Positions 33,872-40,137 of a stretch of 64,000 nucleotides of DNA are shown here, in pieces. Every line of letters begins with the position of its first letter. Position 1 is the first letter of the stretch. The DNA is from Candidatus Nitronauta litoralis (lineage in GTDB: Bacteria; Nitrospinota; Nitrospinia; Nitrospinales; Nitrospinaceae): positions 2,790,001 to 2,854,000 of the forward strand of contig CP048685.1 in NCBI GenBank assembly GCA_015698285.1, written 5' to 3'. The translations under genes and the position numbers were made by a program. The notes under the pieces are model-generated. The model was not told where the DNA came from, did not search any database, and saw only the letters and a program-made list of their open reading frames with translations.

Positions 33872-35857
33872 ATGGTTAGTACGAAAATGAACAAACTCCG
33901 GGCGCTGCCTTTCGCTATGTTTTTGGCCCTGGCTGCATTTGCAGTCAATGGTCTGATGGCGGATGTTGCGAGTGCCAAGGAGGTCTTTGCAGAACAGGCT
34001 TTCGCTGAGCAGGCGTTCGCGAAGGAGGTTCTGGCAGAGGAGGGGGCTGAGGGCGAAGGAGAAGGCGAGCCGGCTATCGAATGGAGCCAGGACGTTTTCT
34101 ATAAGGACTGGGAGGGTAATCCTCTGAAAGGTCCGGTCAGCGGTGCCCCAGCTCCGGATTTGGGTCCGAATGATTACAATAATTACGATTTCGCGCCGAG
34201 CCGGATTCTGCTGTGGATTGCCAATCAGCAGCATCTCTACTTTGGTAGTTTCGTGCTGGCGGTTCCGATCTTCTGTATGTTGATCGAGTTTATCGGAATC
34301 CGGACTCGTGAAAGTGACCCCGTGCTGTCTGAAAAGTATGATCGGTTGGCGCAGGATCTAATGAAGGTTTCTCTGACGGCATACTCCTGGACTGCGATCC
34401 TGGGTGGTGTGTTGCTGTTTACCTTTATTACTCTGTTCCCCGGGTTCTTCAAGTATATGGCCGGAATCTTCCGTCCTGTAATGCACGTTTATGCTCTCAT
34501 GTTCCTGGCTGAAAGTGGTGTTCTTTATGTTTACTACTATGGCTGGGAAAAAATGAAGCATGACCCGTTCCTGAAGTGGATTCATTGTTCGCTGTCGGTT
34601 CTCTTGAACCTGATTGGTACCGTTCTGATGTATCTGGCGAATTCCTGGGCGACCTTTATGCAGGCGCCGGGTGGAATCGATGAGCAGGGTCGTTTTCTGG
34701 GTAACATCTGGCATGTTATTCACTCCACCCTCTGGAACCCGGTAGGGGTGCATCGCATCCTGGGTAATATCGTGTTTGGTGGTGGTATTGTTGGTGCCTA
34801 TGCGGCTTACCATTATCTGACCGCAAAAACACCGGAAGAAAAAGCGCATTACGACTGGGTTTGTTATATCGCGATGTTTATCGCGATTTTTGGTTTGATT
34901 CCTCTTCCGTTTGCTGGTTACTGGCTGATGAAAGAGGTGTACGCGTTCCGTCAGCAAATGGGTATTACCCTGATGGGTGGAATCATGGCCTGGCTCTTCA
35001 TTATCCAGGCGGTTATGATCGGGTTGCTCTTCTTCGGGGCGAATTCGTATCTGCATAACTCGATGGCGAGGGTGCGCGGTTCGCACCGTTACATGAAGTA
35101 TTGTAAGTATATGGTTCTTGTCCTGATCGTATGTTTTACGGCCTGGATGACGCCTCATACTATCGTAATGACCCCTGCTGAATTGAAAGAGATGGGGGGT
35201 GCTCAGCATCCTGTTGTTGGTCACTTTGGGGTTATGTCGGCCAAAAATACGGCTGTTAATCTCATGATCACAACCACGATCTTCTGCTTTCTGTTGTATC
35301 AACGGGCAAACAAGAAAATCACGGTCAAGTGGGCTACCATTGGTAACTGCTGGCTTGGTGCGATTTTCGTGGGTGCTGCCTGTAACATTGTTTATCTCGG
35401 GGTTTATGGTTACTTTCTGCCGGCTAACCAACGTGTTGGTTTGTCAGTACCGCAGGTGACTACTACCCTTACCACCCTGTTCGCTGGTACAGCGATCAAT
35501 ATCTCTATGTTTAAAGACTCTGAGTCTTATGGTGATATTGAATGGGGAACTCAATCCCGTGTTGCGACATACGCCATCTTTTTGCTGGCGATTTCCTTCA
35601 CCTGGTTGATGGGTCTCATGGGGTATATCCGTTCTGCCGTCCGTCTTTTCTGGCATGTTACTGAAGTGTTGCGCGACAACTCGCCAGATGCTTACACCCT
35701 GACCATTGGTGAGGCGGGCAAGATTTTGACCTTTAATGCCCTGTTTGTTTGGGTGCAGTTTGTAATCGTCTTCTGGGTCGGTAGTCTGACCGGTAAGAAG
35801 AAAGTTGAGAGCGCGGCTCCTCAAGGAGTTCCTGTGCCAGCTCAGCAGCAGCAGTAA
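33872..35857 (+). CDS. cytochrome bd-like oxidase subunit I homolog
   Basis: A 661-residue membrane protein of the CydA-like superfamily with about 13-14 hydrophobic segments. An N-terminal signal-like segment (about 12-35) and a short tandem repeat of EQAFA units (about 39-55) precede an acidic loop, then the core. H121 (NQQHLYFGSF) and H294 (VHRILGN) correspond in position to heme ligands of CydA, and ANSWATFMQAPGG (257-268) matches the CydA ANGWMQNPVG region. The CydA GRQPW motif is absent; extra histidines occur at 205, 281, 284, 314 and 429. Similar bd-like proteins are known from nitrite oxidisers. A terminal oxidase or quinone-linked role is inference. It heads an operon with three cytochromes c. 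Confidence 0.8.
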   Translation: MVSTKMNKLRALPFAMFLALAAFAVNGLMADVASAKEVFAEQAFAEQAFAKEVLAEEGAEGEGEGEPAIEWSQDVFYKDWEGNPLKGPVSGAPAPDLGPNDYNNYDFAPSRILLWIANQQHLYFGSFVLAVPIFCMLIEFIGIRTRESDPVLSEKYDRLAQDLMKVSLTAYSWTAILGGVLLFTFITLFPGFFKYMAGIFRPVMHVYALMFLAESGVLYVYYYGWEKMKHDPFLKWIHCSLSVLLNLIGTVLMYLANSWATFMQAPGGIDEQGRFLGNIWHVIHSTLWNPVGVHRILGNIVFGGGIVGAYAAYHYLTAKTPEEKAHYDWVCYIAMFIAIFGLIPLPFAGYWLMKEVYAFRQQMGITLMGGIMAWLFIIQAVMIGLLFFGANSYLHNSMARVRGSHRYMKYCKYMVLVLIVCFTAWMTPHTIVMTPAELKEMGGAQHPVVGHFGVMSAKNTAVNLMITTTIFCFLLYQRANKKITVKWATIGNCWLGAIFVGAACNIVYLGVYGYFLPANQRVGLSVPQVTTTLTTLFAGTAINISMFKDSESYGDIEWGTQSRVATYAIFLLAISFTWLMGLMGYIRSAVRLFWHVTEVLRDNSPDAYTLTIGEAGKILTFNALFVWVQFVIVFWVGSLTGKKKVESAAPQGVPVPAQQQQ

Positions 35858-35904
35858 GGACTAACTGATCCATTAGCATTTTGGCTTAAGAGAGGAGATT
35901 AGGA

Positions 35905-37260
35905 ATGCTTCCAGAGCAACAGGATATCTTGTGGACATTTGTGACTATTATGTTCACATTGTTCTCGGTTTACGTTTTTATTAACGTAATCCAAAACTGC
36001 CGGGCTCGCCCGGGGGTGAACGCTCAGAAATGGGGTATCATTTTTGGTGCCTTTATTCTTCTGAGTTTGTATCAAACTAATCACATGTTCGACCTGAATC
36101 AGCAGGAGCAATTGGGTTACATCAGGTGGCAGGTTTTGACGGTGTTTTTTCTCCTGCTGGCTTGGGGGCTGTTCTTCAAGGGAAATGATGTTGAGGATCA
36201 GTCACCTCCGATTGTCAGGGCGGCATTTTTCTATTCAACCATTTCTATCCTTTTGGCTGGTTATACCAACTGGCTTCCGCAGCAGCGTTCAGACCCCCCT
36301 CCCAAGGGGGGTGCTGTGATCACCGGGGATATCACAATGGAAGACTTTGTCGATATGGGGCGCGTTATTGTTTTTAGTGCGAAACAGGTCGCTGGTCAGA
36401 AATCAATTGGTAAGGGGCAGTGTCCCTTGTGCCATACATTTGATCCAGGTGATAACATCGGTCGTTGTCCCAACTTGTTCGGTGTTGAGGAGCGTAGTCA
36501 TACTCGGATTAAAGAGGACCGTTATTTAAATAGTCCTATTGCGGTCGGAGTTAAAGATGGTGGTTCCGGGATAGTTAAAGGTAAGGCTGAAGAGGTTCCT
36601 GAGGAATACAGACGAGGTGGATCCCCGGACTTTAATGGGGAAGATTATCTTCGTGAATCCCTGATGTGTCCTTCATGTTACGTGGTTGAAGGGTATGGTA
36701 AAGAGGGTGATACGATCAGTCCTATGCCTCTGATCCATAAGCCGCCGATCAGTCTGAGTCCGGTTGAATTGAATGCGGTAATTGCCTGGTTGCAGTCGAA
36801 AGACACCCCGGGTGAATTTGCCAAGGTAACGGTTCCTCTACCCTCTGGTGATGACGCTGCCGCAGAAGAAGCTCCGGCGGATGATGGCGGAGAAGCTCCG
36901 TTGTTTGTGACGGGTGATGAAACTCCCGAGGAGATAATCAATATCCTTGGTTGTCCGCTGTGCCACACCATTCCTGGAGTTGAGGGTGCGGTTGGGGCGC
37001 TGGGTCCGAAGCTGCATGAAAAAACTAACGCTCCAAGTCGCATGAAAGACGCGCGCTATGAAGGTACTGCAAAAACTACCAAGGAATATGTTCAGGAATC
37101 TATCCTCAATCCAAGTGTGTACATTGTTATGAACGAGGAAGAGGGTGAGCCTTATCCTGATGGTGTTATGCCGCAGGACTTTGGTAGTAAACTGTCTGTA
37201 AATGCGTTAAATAAACTAGTTGATTTCATTAGTAATACTGAAGCAGGCTCCGAAGGTTAA
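35905..37260 (+). CDS. membrane-anchored diheme cytochrome c
   Basis: A 451-residue protein with four hydrophobic segments (about 12-30, 43-58, 76-91, 105-122) and a long extracytoplasmic part. Two heme c sites are seen: CPLCH at 173-177 and CPLCH at 350-354. Likely Met ligands lie in SPMP (M273) and GVMPQ (M422). The two heme domains are related to each other, with YLRES/YVQES and NPSVY-type segments. In the first domain this segment has become CPSC (255-258), two extra cysteines with no following His. An acidic Ala/Glu/Asp linker (about 315-340) joins the domains. Its role is presumably electron transfer to or from the bd-like subunit 47 bases upstream. Confidence 0.85.
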   Translation: MLPEQQDILWTFVTIMFTLFSVYVFINVIQNCRARPGVNAQKWGIIFGAFILLSLYQTNHMFDLNQQEQLGYIRWQVLTVFFLLLAWGLFFKGNDVEDQSPPIVRAAFFYSTISILLAGYTNWLPQQRSDPPPKGGAVITGDITMEDFVDMGRVIVFSAKQVAGQKSIGKGQCPLCHTFDPGDNIGRCPNLFGVEERSHTRIKEDRYLNSPIAVGVKDGGSGIVKGKAEEVPEEYRRGGSPDFNGEDYLRESLMCPSCYVVEGYGKEGDTISPMPLIHKPPISLSPVELNAVIAWLQSKDTPGEFAKVTVPLPSGDDAAAEEAPADDGGEAPLFVTGDETPEEIINILGCPLCHTIPGVEGAVGALGPKLHEKTNAPSRMKDARYEGTAKTTKEYVQESILNPSVYIVMNEEEGEPYPDGVMPQDFGSKLSVNALNKLVDFISNTEAGSEG

Positions 37261-37274
37261 AGGAGAAGGACAAA

Positions 37275-38288
37275 ATGAACAAAACCTTTTTAAGTCTTAT
37301 TGTTACATTAGGTGTGGCGCTTGCCTTGCATTTTGGGGTAAAGCCGATGTTCCTTCCCAAGGAGCCCACCATGATTTTCAATCGGTACGCCTTCTTTATA
37401 GTTCTGGTGCTATCGATAATTGCAGTGAACCTGATTCTCAGGCTTTCTCCCGTGATGACTATGAAAGCGGCGTATGTCTGGGGACTGGGTTTTTACTTTT
37501 ATGATCAAATTCTGTACCCACACGTTCCGTGGACCCTGTTCATCACTTACATGATGCTGTGGACCATTGGTACCTTCCTTTATATTTCGCAGGATTCCAA
37601 AACATTTGCGGAATTCAGGGAACCAATTGTGAAAACGATTACAGGTGAATTTAAAATTGCCCGTTATATCGTGTTTGCTGCGCTCCCGGTGCTGGTTGGT
37701 ATGGGTACCTACAAGTTTATTTATCCCACATATCCAGAGCCGGTGGAGTTGCGTACTGTGCATCCTGCGCCTCCAGCTACGACCAAGGTTCATGGAAAGA
37801 CATACACTCTGGAAGGATTGCAAAATCCTTATCGGGTGGATGAGCAGGATAACTACTATGAGGGTGGAACTCACCTTCCGGTAGAGGGTAAGTTTCCCTT
37901 CCTCGATGCAGAATCTGTCGAGTACATGAAGTATGTAACTGAGGGTGGAACTGTCTTCTTCCAAAATTGTCATTATTGTCATGGTGACCAGTTGAATGGT
38001 CTGGGTATGTTCTCCCACGTATTCAACCCGACTCCGGCAAACTTTGTCGATCCGGGAACCATCGCCATGCTTCGTGAATCGTTCCTCTTCTGGAGGGTGT
38101 CCAAAGGTGGGCCTGGTTTACCGAATGAGTCCACCCCCTGGTCTTCAGCAATGCCCCCATGGGAAGAACATTTAACAACGGAACAAATCTGGAAGGTCGT
38201 CCTGTTTGAATACTGGTACACAGGCTGGCATCCGCGAACCTTCGATGAAGAGTCATCTTCTGGTGGAGAAGGTGGCGGCGGCCATTAA
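37275..38288 (+). CDS. membrane-anchored monoheme cytochrome c
   Basis: A 337-residue protein. Four hydrophobic segments (about 5-22, 38-56, 68-104 as one or two, and 131-150) anchor it, followed by an extracytoplasmic domain with one heme c site, CHYCH at 232-236, and a probable Met ligand M293 in SAMPPW. The C-terminus is Gly/His-rich. The transmembrane part is not one I recognise from standard cytochrome families. It lies 14 bases after the diheme cytochrome, with GGAGAAGG ahead of the ATG, and 51 bases before the next cytochrome, so it is part of the same operon. Confidence 0.85.
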   Translation: MNKTFLSLIVTLGVALALHFGVKPMFLPKEPTMIFNRYAFFIVLVLSIIAVNLILRLSPVMTMKAAYVWGLGFYFYDQILYPHVPWTLFITYMMLWTIGTFLYISQDSKTFAEFREPIVKTITGEFKIARYIVFAALPVLVGMGTYKFIYPTYPEPVELRTVHPAPPATTKVHGKTYTLEGLQNPYRVDEQDNYYEGGTHLPVEGKFPFLDAESVEYMKYVTEGGTVFFQNCHYCHGDQLNGLGMFSHVFNPTPANFVDPGTIAMLRESFLFWRVSKGGPGLPNESTPWSSAMPPWEEHLTTEQIWKVVLFEYWYTGWHPRTFDEESSSGGEGGGGH

Positions 38289-38339
38289 CCTTAACTTTAA
38301 CTCTGTTACCAATTTAAATAGGGATCTAAAGAGGCAATC

Positions 38340-40073
38340 ATGACAATTAACAAAAAATCAATCAAACCTGTTCTCGGTTTTCTTGGAATGGCAATGATGC
38401 TGGTGCTTCCTTCGGTAGCACTGGCAGGAGTGCCGGAGCCAATTCAGGAAGACAAGCTTGAACACGGTAAAAAGGTTTATTTTAAAAGGTGTGTCTGGTG
38501 CCATGGAGTAGAGGGCGGAGGAGACGGTCCATCTGCGGACCGGTTGTTCACCCGTCCACGTAACTTTATCCAGGGTACATTTAAAATCCGTTGGACTGAC
38601 TCCGGTCAGCTGCCTCGGGATGAAGATCTGGAAAGAACAGTGAAAAATGGACTTCCCGGATCTGCTATGCCAGCTTGGGGTGAGGTTCTCTCCGATGCTG
38701 ACGTCAAGGCAGTTGTTCAGTTTGTCAAGTCACTGGTTCAGGATCGCGACTTCAAGGATGAAGATGAAGATATGGAAGTCATGGACTGGGGTGGGCAGAA
38801 AAATGGGGAAAACCCGTGGGGAGTAACTGGCCCTTATTTTACCGGGGTTCCTGAAGAAGCTATTTCTGCTGGTGCGGAACTGTTTAAGAAAAACAAGTGT
38901 TTTGAGTGTCACGGTGGTGAAGGCCGCGGTGATGGTAACCCCACTATGAAAGATGACTGGGGATTTCCGATTGTTGCCGCTGACTGGACTCAGTGCTGGA
39001 ATTTCCGGGGAAGCCGTCGGAATGCCTTTGATCCTTTTAACGTTGTCAGGACGATCTCAACCGGAATCAACGGTACTCCGATGCCGAACTTCCGGGAAAA
39101 AATCACTCCTGAAGAACGCTGGCAACTCGCTGCATTTGTGAATTCGCTTTGTCCCAGGAAGAATATTGACCCGTTGGTAAACAAGCCGGTCACTGACTTC
39201 CTGATTAAATCAAAGTACACGGTAGGTCCTGTAGCTCCGAATATGGATGATCCCATGTGGCAAGCTCCTGAGCATGATGATCGTCTTCCAGGCTACGAAC
39301 GATCTGAAGAATACGTCAATAACGGTGGTGACCAGTTTTGGCATTACATCGCGATGGGCGGTCAGATCACTCGTGGTGAGCGTAATTTTGACCCCAAAGT
39401 TGATAACCTTTGGGTAATGTCACGCTGGTCTGATGAAGAGCAGGCTGTGTACTATCTGGTTGAATATCACGACCGCTTCCTTTCAACTGATCCTGAGTTT
39501 CCTGACGGTGTTGCCATGCAATGGCCTGGTCAGTTGGAAGATCTGTTTGGAGCGGAAAAACCCTACTTCATCTATGGTGATTCCAAGAAGCCTGTAGACA
39601 TTTGGAAAGCCAACTTCATGGCCAAGGATTACAATCCTACCAATGCTCCCAATCCCGCTGGTTACGATCTTGACATCAGTGTGAAGGAACTTGTAGGCCA
39701 TGGATTTGATGCGGTTGAGCCCAAGGAAACACCGGGCGGGGTTGAAATTGTTCAATCCAAGTTTCATCAAGGACGTGTCAAAATTATGTTCAAGCGTTCT
39801 TTGTCCACTGAAAACCCGAACAAAACTGATGTTCAGTTTCCGATAGCAAATTATGTACCGGTTTCTTTCATGCAGTGGTCTGGTTTTGACAAAGAGCATG
39901 ATGAGCATATGGCCATCTCCACCTGGGTTTACACCATTCTGGAGCCGGCATTGCCAGCATCTTTGAACTACATGCCACCTATCATGGCAATTGCCTTCTT
40001 TGGTTTTCAGCTCTGGCTTGTTCGCATGACCAAGCGAACCAGAGATATGGTTAAAGATGGCACCTGGAAGTAA
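38340..40073 (+). CDS. diheme cytochrome c fused to a DMSO-reductase gamma-subunit-like heme domain
   Basis: A 577-residue exported protein. A signal segment (about 10-29) precedes heme c domain 1 (CVWCH 51-55, Met ligand M110 in SAMPAW) and heme c domain 2 (CFECH 187-191, M248 in TPMPNF). Residues of about 290-540 look like the ethylbenzene-dehydrogenase gamma-subunit type heme-b-binding domain (DOMON-like; VDNLWVMSRWSDEEQAVYYL and IMFKRSL blocks), also found in NxrC-type subunits. A single C-terminal helix (about 547-565) anchors it. The combination would form an electron wire across the periplasmic face. It is the last gene of the operon, followed by a terminator. Confidence 0.8.
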   Translation: MTINKKSIKPVLGFLGMAMMLVLPSVALAGVPEPIQEDKLEHGKKVYFKRCVWCHGVEGGGDGPSADRLFTRPRNFIQGTFKIRWTDSGQLPRDEDLERTVKNGLPGSAMPAWGEVLSDADVKAVVQFVKSLVQDRDFKDEDEDMEVMDWGGQKNGENPWGVTGPYFTGVPEEAISAGAELFKKNKCFECHGGEGRGDGNPTMKDDWGFPIVAADWTQCWNFRGSRRNAFDPFNVVRTISTGINGTPMPNFREKITPEERWQLAAFVNSLCPRKNIDPLVNKPVTDFLIKSKYTVGPVAPNMDDPMWQAPEHDDRLPGYERSEEYVNNGGDQFWHYIAMGGQITRGERNFDPKVDNLWVMSRWSDEEQAVYYLVEYHDRFLSTDPEFPDGVAMQWPGQLEDLFGAEKPYFIYGDSKKPVDIWKANFMAKDYNPTNAPNPAGYDLDISVKELVGHGFDAVEPKETPGGVEIVQSKFHQGRVKIMFKRSLSTENPNKTDVQFPIANYVPVSFMQWSGFDKEHDEHMAISTWVYTILEPALPASLNYMPPIMAIAFFGFQLWLVRMTKRTRDMVKDGTWK

Positions 40074-40105
40074 AATGAAATGACCTTAAAGGTCATAGCA
40101 TATAG

Positions 40106-40137
40106 AAAGGCCCACCTGAAAAGGTGGGCCTTTTTTT
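40106..40137 (+). terminator. rho-independent terminator of the respiratory operon
   Basis: A perfect 12-bp stem AAAGGCCCACCT/AGGTGGGCCTTT with a GAAA loop is followed by a T run to 40137. A 6-bp inverted repeat (TGACCT/AGGTCA) lies just upstream at 40081-40095. Confidence 0.92.

Follow-up and report, generated by a model that had tools for sequence, protein, structure and literature searches.

The genome paper of Candidatus Nitronauta litoralis EB (PMC8026999) describes a cytochrome bd-like oxidase clustered with two cytochromes c and with a membrane-bound alternative subunit C of nitrite oxidoreductase (NXR), known as alt_NxrC, a cluster whose synteny extends to Nitrospinae, Nitrospirae and anammox bacteria. 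That paper also reports that the organism respires O2 with nitrite, and it calls unclear the final step from cytochrome c to O2 in marine nitrite oxidizers devoid of heme-copper oxidase. In Nitrospira moscoviensis, the bd-like_3/alt_NxrC_2 cluster ranks within the top 40 genes by transcription (PMC6606698). The bd-like proteins have been assigned to the OR-N family of the bd superfamily (Murali 2021, as related in PMC10839748 and PMC12342949). We have analysed a stretch of 64 000 nucleotides of Ca. Nitronauta litoralis (contig CP048685.1, positions 2,790,001 to 2,854,000; hereafter the window), which carries this cluster at positions 33872-40073 on the + strand. The cluster is real and conserved, it is functionally important, and it has been reported before; the candidate of a new, undescribed complex was therefore rejected, since the cluster figures in PMC8026999 and, for N. 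moscoviensis, in PMC6606698. As to its mechanism, which we infer, we lean towards a cytochrome c-fed oxygen reductase. The genes concerned and their terminator are as follows.

33872-35857, + strand: gene 1, cytochrome bd-like (OR-N type, CydA-like) membrane protein of 661 amino acids with a signal-like N-terminal stretch (PF01654; AlphaFold2 model and Foldseek)
35905-37260, + strand: gene 2, membrane-anchored diheme cytochrome c of 451 amino acids (PF00034 just above cut-off; two CxxCH)
37275-38288, + strand: gene 3, membrane-anchored monoheme cytochrome c of 337 amino acids (PF13442 and PF00034 above cut-off; one CxxCH)
38340-40073, + strand: gene 4, alt_NxrC of 577 amino acids, with two cytochrome c domains, a DOMON/EbdC-like domain and a C-terminal membrane helix (PF13442, TIGR03477, Foldseek)
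40104-40135, + strand: intrinsic terminator downstream of gene 4, a 14-pair stem with seven GC pairs and a T tract, 30 nucleotides past the last stop

The four co-directional genes are separated by gaps of 47, 14 and 51 nucleotides, and their CxxCH motifs number 0, 2, 1 and 2. An earlier note on this DNA had given the same spacing, the same motif numbers for genes 2 to 4, a terminator closing a single operon and the lack of GRQPW in gene 1; recounting confirmed all of its countable statements. It had also proposed that the four products form one complex. Genes 1-4 do constitute one operon and most likely specify one membrane complex, because order and heme pattern are kept across two phyla and because, in two relatives from other Nitrospinota classes, a gene-2 type cytochrome c domain is fused to the C-terminus of gene 1 (L051, 634-3006; L052, 6709-9258). 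The fused domains match the gene-2 profile with E values of 7e-20 and 2e-20, respectively, and no separate gene 2 was found in either locus. Separation of the genes in relatives, which had been set beforehand as the observation that would speak against a complex, was looked for as well, and the outcome speaks against it: the order 1-2-3-4 with exactly the 0/2/1/2 motif pattern is found at 66 of the 80 named Nitrospinota and Nitrospirota loci, N. moscoviensis bd-like_3/alt_NxrC_2 included. Among the 14 others, contig ends truncate 11 (L094, one of these, has split frames as well), L086 has a split gene 2, and at L134 and L142 genes 2-4 are not nearby. Gene 1 itself was found in 72 out of 77 Nitrospinota genomes, the full-length copies within the order being 81-97% identical.

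In an order-level Nitrospinota sample, nine loci out of ten have the four genes in order. At the tenth (L038, 8759-10249, in G057, a single-contig relative), gene 1 is present, but gene 2 looks disrupted, its match being limited to the first 174 residues, and genes 3 and 4 are undetected by BLAST, which could result from frameshifts, an assembly error or true decay. In the window, the cluster has hisD as its upstream neighbour and, downstream of gene 4 on the opposite strand, a gene for a pyridoxal phosphate-dependent aldolase.

In Escherichia coli CydA, H19 is a ligand of the high-spin active-site heme, H186 is a ligand of heme b558 and M393 its methionine ligand, K252 and E257 belong to the quinol site, and E445 is a ligand of heme b595. 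The only family matched by gene 1 is Cyt_bd_oxida_I (PF01654; 73.5 bits), over profile positions 2-239 of 418 only, i.e. the N-terminal half; the COX1 domain is not matched. A phmmer search of the PDB with gene 1 gave no match, but a profile search did recover CydA, and all ten significant Foldseek matches of the AlphaFold2 model (predicted local distance difference test score, 74.8) are CydA chains, although the superposition is poor overall (template modelling scores of 0.5-0.6 by target length). The residues of interest are given below.

34232-34234, + strand: H121, equivalent of E. coli CydA H19 (MAFFT and profile-profile alignments)
34751-34753, + strand: H294, equivalent of E. coli CydA H186 (MAFFT and profile-profile alignments)
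35204-35209, + strand: Q445-H446, Gln-His where the N. moscoviensis paralogue L153 has His-His (alignment)
35648-35656, + strand: F593-W594-H595, FWH where paralogues have HWH, H595 being invariant (alignment)

H121 and H294, which the earlier note had placed at heme-ligand-like positions, thus fall on two CydA heme ligands, and both are invariant in a 36-sequence alignment and in a set of 13 gene-1 orthologues. Two further CydA residues, E107 and H126, are kept as E214 and H238 (MAFFT and profile-profile alignments), and E214 is nearly invariant; at the position of E99, gene 1 has Y207. The several extra histidines that had been pointed out also hold up on comparison: H238, H429, H446 and H595 do not vary within the 13-sequence set. 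At the columns of K252, E257 and E445, the MAFFT alignment with E. coli CydA has G364, G369 and L582, and GRQPW is not present. With the quinol residues and E445 lost, cytochrome c becomes the likelier electron donor. M455 pairs with M393 in the MAFFT alignment but not in the profile-profile one, so that the two disagree on this ligand. Gene 1 is 62% identical to N. moscoviensis bd-like_3 and groups with it and with bd-like_4 in a 100/100 clade of the maximum-likelihood tree; having lost the quinol site, kept the N-terminal bd core and grouped with the bd-like proteins of nitrite oxidizers, it has the features by which the OR-N family is recognized.

A histidine occupies the positions of Q445 and F593 in L153 and in most sequences of other Nitrospinota classes. 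The Gln and Phe found here reproduce the published substitutions of the bd-like oxidase (PMC8026999), which were set there against the heme-copper ligands and which we map on the bd family as well. Judged as a heme-copper oxidase, gene 1 does not have the complete histidine set for CuB and a high-spin heme, on account of Q445 and F593. After its signal-like N-terminus, gene 1 has a repetitive stretch of AEQAF/AKEV type (about residues 34-66; window 33970-34075), which differs among relatives.

The hemes c that would feed gene 1 are carried by the three other proteins, the total that the motifs support for the four-gene cluster being five.

36421-36435, + strand: heme c site 1, CPLCH, gene 2 residues 173-177 (CxxCH motif)
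36952-36966, + strand: heme c site 2, CPLCH, gene 2 residues 350-354 (CxxCH motif)
37968-37982, + strand: heme c site 3, CHYCH, gene 3 residues 232-236 (CxxCH motif)
38490-38504, + strand: heme c site 4, CVWCH, gene 4 residues 51-55 (CxxCH motif; invariant in a 27-sequence alignment)
38898-38912, + strand: heme c site 5, CFECH, gene 4 residues 187-191 (CxECH invariant in the same alignment)
39357-39944, + strand: DOMON/EbdC-like beta-sandwich domain, about residues 340-535 of gene 4 (alignments and fold match)

Both motifs of gene 2 are invariant in a 22-sequence alignment, and so is that of gene 3 among 20 sequences. Our count of two and one CxxCH differs from that of PMC8026999, where a diheme and a triheme cytochrome c are listed. 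Between its two CxxCH, gene 2 has a CPSC-Tyr motif (residues 255-258; window 36667-36678), kept as CPxC(Y/F) in Nitrospinaceae and Nitrospirota but not in three outer Nitrospinota sequences of the 22-sequence alignment; this motif may account for the triheme count in the literature.

Gene 4 combines heme c sites, a gamma-like domain of the dimethyl sulfoxide (DMSO) reductase type II enzymes and a membrane helix, which are the attributes of alt_NxrC. It matches PF13442 (87.5 bits) and TIGR03477, the heme b subunit of DMSO reductase type II enzymes (E value 2.3e-9). Its N-terminal diheme part is homologous to the Kuenenia diheme cytochrome 6h5l_B of the Kustc0457/Kustc0458 complex (E value 6e-57), and its C-terminal part to NXR subunit C (7b04_C, 1.8e-15) and EbdC (2ivf_C, 3e-9). 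The predicted model matches the NxrC and EbdC folds (Foldseek: 7b04, 6h5l_B, 2ivf_C), so that the ethylbenzene dehydrogenase gamma-like region announced in the earlier note is borne out. Of the 'DOMON-type heme domain' mentioned there, the fold stands, but the known heme b ligands are not conserved. In the NXR-C of Kuenenia the axial ligands of heme b are Met155 and Lys305 (PMC8387239); the corresponding positions in gene 4 are Tyr412 and either His522 or Met523, the register being uncertain by one residue. The first of these positions is occupied in relatives by Tyr, Phe, Met, His or Trp, and the second, if His522 is taken as the register, by Lys, His, Arg, Thr or Ala. A functional sixth heme in this domain is unsupported, as the ligand positions are variable and are not Met and Lys. 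Judging from these alignments, the domain could have a docking or structural role, or could hold a heme that is weakly bound or differently ligated.

How could these four proteins work? The earlier note had suggested an unusual terminal oxidase or a reverse-electron-transport unit. This was not a new idea, the hypothesis having been published for the cluster both in this genome and in relatives (PMC8026999, PMC6606698, PMC3578206, PMC10839748), and the context favours the oxidase without settling the question. Electrons from the periplasm, coming here from nitrite through NXR and cytochrome c, would be taken up by the heme c domains of gene 4 and handed on through gene 3 and then gene 2 to b-type hemes whose ligands in the bd-like protein are H121 and H294; at these hemes O2 would be reduced. 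The cluster may act jointly with the second bd-like protein of the genome. We favour an oxygen reductase fed by cytochrome c because the host has no COX1 homologue and one canonical CydA only, yet respires O2 with nitrite. The absence of COX1 extends to the whole closed genome, whose bd-family proteins amount to the canonical CydA and two bd-like proteins. The second bd-like protein (L003; G000:C1, about 3460308-3463750, i.e. L054 8309-11751, minus strand) has 708 amino acids with extra N-terminal membrane segments; its gene is directly followed by one for a 425-amino acid membrane cytochrome c with two CxxCH, which makes a second candidate oxidase module. It falls in a separate 100/100 clade with N. 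moscoviensis L151 and is conserved across the phylum.

Within the order, a full-length heme-copper oxidase occurs in five genomes only (G004, G015, G018, G023 and G028). Many genomes of the Nitrospinaceae order also have proteins of about 140-330 amino acids whose COX1 match is confined to the first third or to the last part (e.g. G049:C12:8687-9067), mostly with scores under the Pfam cut-off. In the sample of eight cluster-bearing Nitrospirota genomes that were checked for oxidases there is no COX1 match, and five of these, the metagenome-assembled genomes (MAGs) G078-G082, have no match to NxrA and no canonical bd either, with two to five bd-like proteins each. Similarly, no NxrA match was obtained in the Nitrospinota genomes G001, G072 and G073, which have the cluster or as much of it as is sequenced; heme-copper oxidases are present in most of these outer classes. 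Since the cluster is found without detectable NXR, it is not tied to NXR, which argues against a nitrite-specific device for reverse electron transport and for cytochrome c oxidation by O2.

Several points weigh against an oxygen reductase. The C-terminal half of gene 1 has no reliable alignment to CydA; the b595 ligand and GRQPW are lost, and His-His and HWH have become Gln-His and FWH. No activity is reported for the cluster in the papers cited here. Absences in MAGs may stem from incompleteness, and the aerobic life of the organisms behind them is assumed. The true oxidase may instead be the second bd-like protein, accompanied as it is by a diheme cytochrome c of its own, or this protein may be a partner. 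For anammox bacteria, which are anaerobic, a homologous cluster was reported (PMC3578206, PMC6606698); this suits a role other than that of an oxidase. The authors of the N. moscoviensis study favoured reverse electron flow for bd-like_3 (PMC6606698). According to that proposal, also put forward in PMC3578206, electrons derived from nitrite would be driven uphill from cytochrome c to quinone at the expense of the proton motive force, the cluster acting as a reversed alternative complex III with NXR docking on the DOMON domain. The NxrC-like fold of gene 4 agrees with this proposal, and in related operons of the Nitrospinota, Mrp/complex I antiporter-like subunits (PF00361, E values 1e-41 to 5e-58) lie between the fusion and gene 3, one at L051 (3008-4465) and two at L052 (3265-6719), as in TO_2, for which quinone reduction was proposed (PMC9040806). 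Against it stand the quinol-site residues missing from gene 1 and the occurrence of the cluster, or of its sequenced part, with no detectable NXR in the three Nitrospinota genomes and five Nitrospirota MAGs mentioned above; moreover, should the cluster not be an oxidase, cytochrome c oxidation in this closed genome, which has no heme-copper oxidase, would fall to the second bd-like protein only. On balance we consider reverse transport unlikely.

Less probable still, in our opinion, is that the 661-amino acid protein is catalytically dead and serves, like CydA', as a membrane anchor and electron relay in an accessory complex, the real oxidase then being the second bd-like protein together with its diheme cytochrome c. 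The disappearance of His-His and HWH from the gene 1 clade, the phylum-wide conservation of the second bd-like gene with the diheme cytochrome c gene directly after it, and the CydAA' pairing hypothesized for OR-N1/OR-N2 (PMC10839748) all go in this direction. However, the invariance of H121, H238, H294 and H595, the near invariance of E214 and the high identity of gene 1 across the order represent a strong constraint for a mere anchor, and the paralogue to be assisted itself lacks H429 and H446. Returning to the oxygen reductase, we put forward a wider version of it only tentatively, and with rather more doubt than the reading itself: a heme-copper-free cytochrome c oxidase derived from bd, supplied by five hemes c by way of a DOMON-fold subunit that has probably lost its heme b, could serve most nitrite oxidizers of the Nitrospinota and Nitrospirota as their main respiratory O2 reductase, related versions driving ion-pumping subunits of the Mrp/complex I type.

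For the step from cytochrome c to O2, this genome has two candidate modules, of which the operon is one. To what was known, we add that residues equivalent to H19, E107, H126 and H186 are kept while the Q-loop, E445 and GRQPW are lost, that the heme b ligands of the DOMON domain are not conserved, that gene 1 can be fused to a gene-2 cytochrome, and that the cluster occurs without NXR or heme-copper oxidase. These facts make the choice between oxidase and reverse transport more directly testable.

Among the closest systems described so far is the cluster of N. moscoviensis (L102), which has the same four genes in the same order and with the same motif pattern; the difference is that Nitrospira has a second bd-like copy, bd-like_4, near the cluster, whereas no bd-like copy is adjacent to it in Ca. 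Nitronauta. A homologous cluster is also present in Ca. Troglogloeales (L138). TO_1 of Manganitrophaceae (PMC9040806) and the cluster of the window have in common that a bd-like protein is accompanied by a cytochrome b-like subunit on the periplasmic side. There are no MrpD-like subunits in the window; they are present in the related operons L051 and L052, whose antiporter-like arrangement resembles TO_2, called unique to Ca. Manganitrophaceae (PMC9040806). With canonical CydAB, gene 1 shares the fold and the positions of H19, E107, H126 and H186, but it has neither the Q-loop residues nor E445 nor GRQPW, and, among the open reading frames and profile matches of the window, the operon has no CydB-like gene and has three c-type cytochromes in its place. 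A CydA-like protein without the quinol site, accompanied by cytochromes c and kept in most Nitrospinota, is what likens this cluster to the OR-N family, as far as that family is presented in the reports citing Murali 2021.

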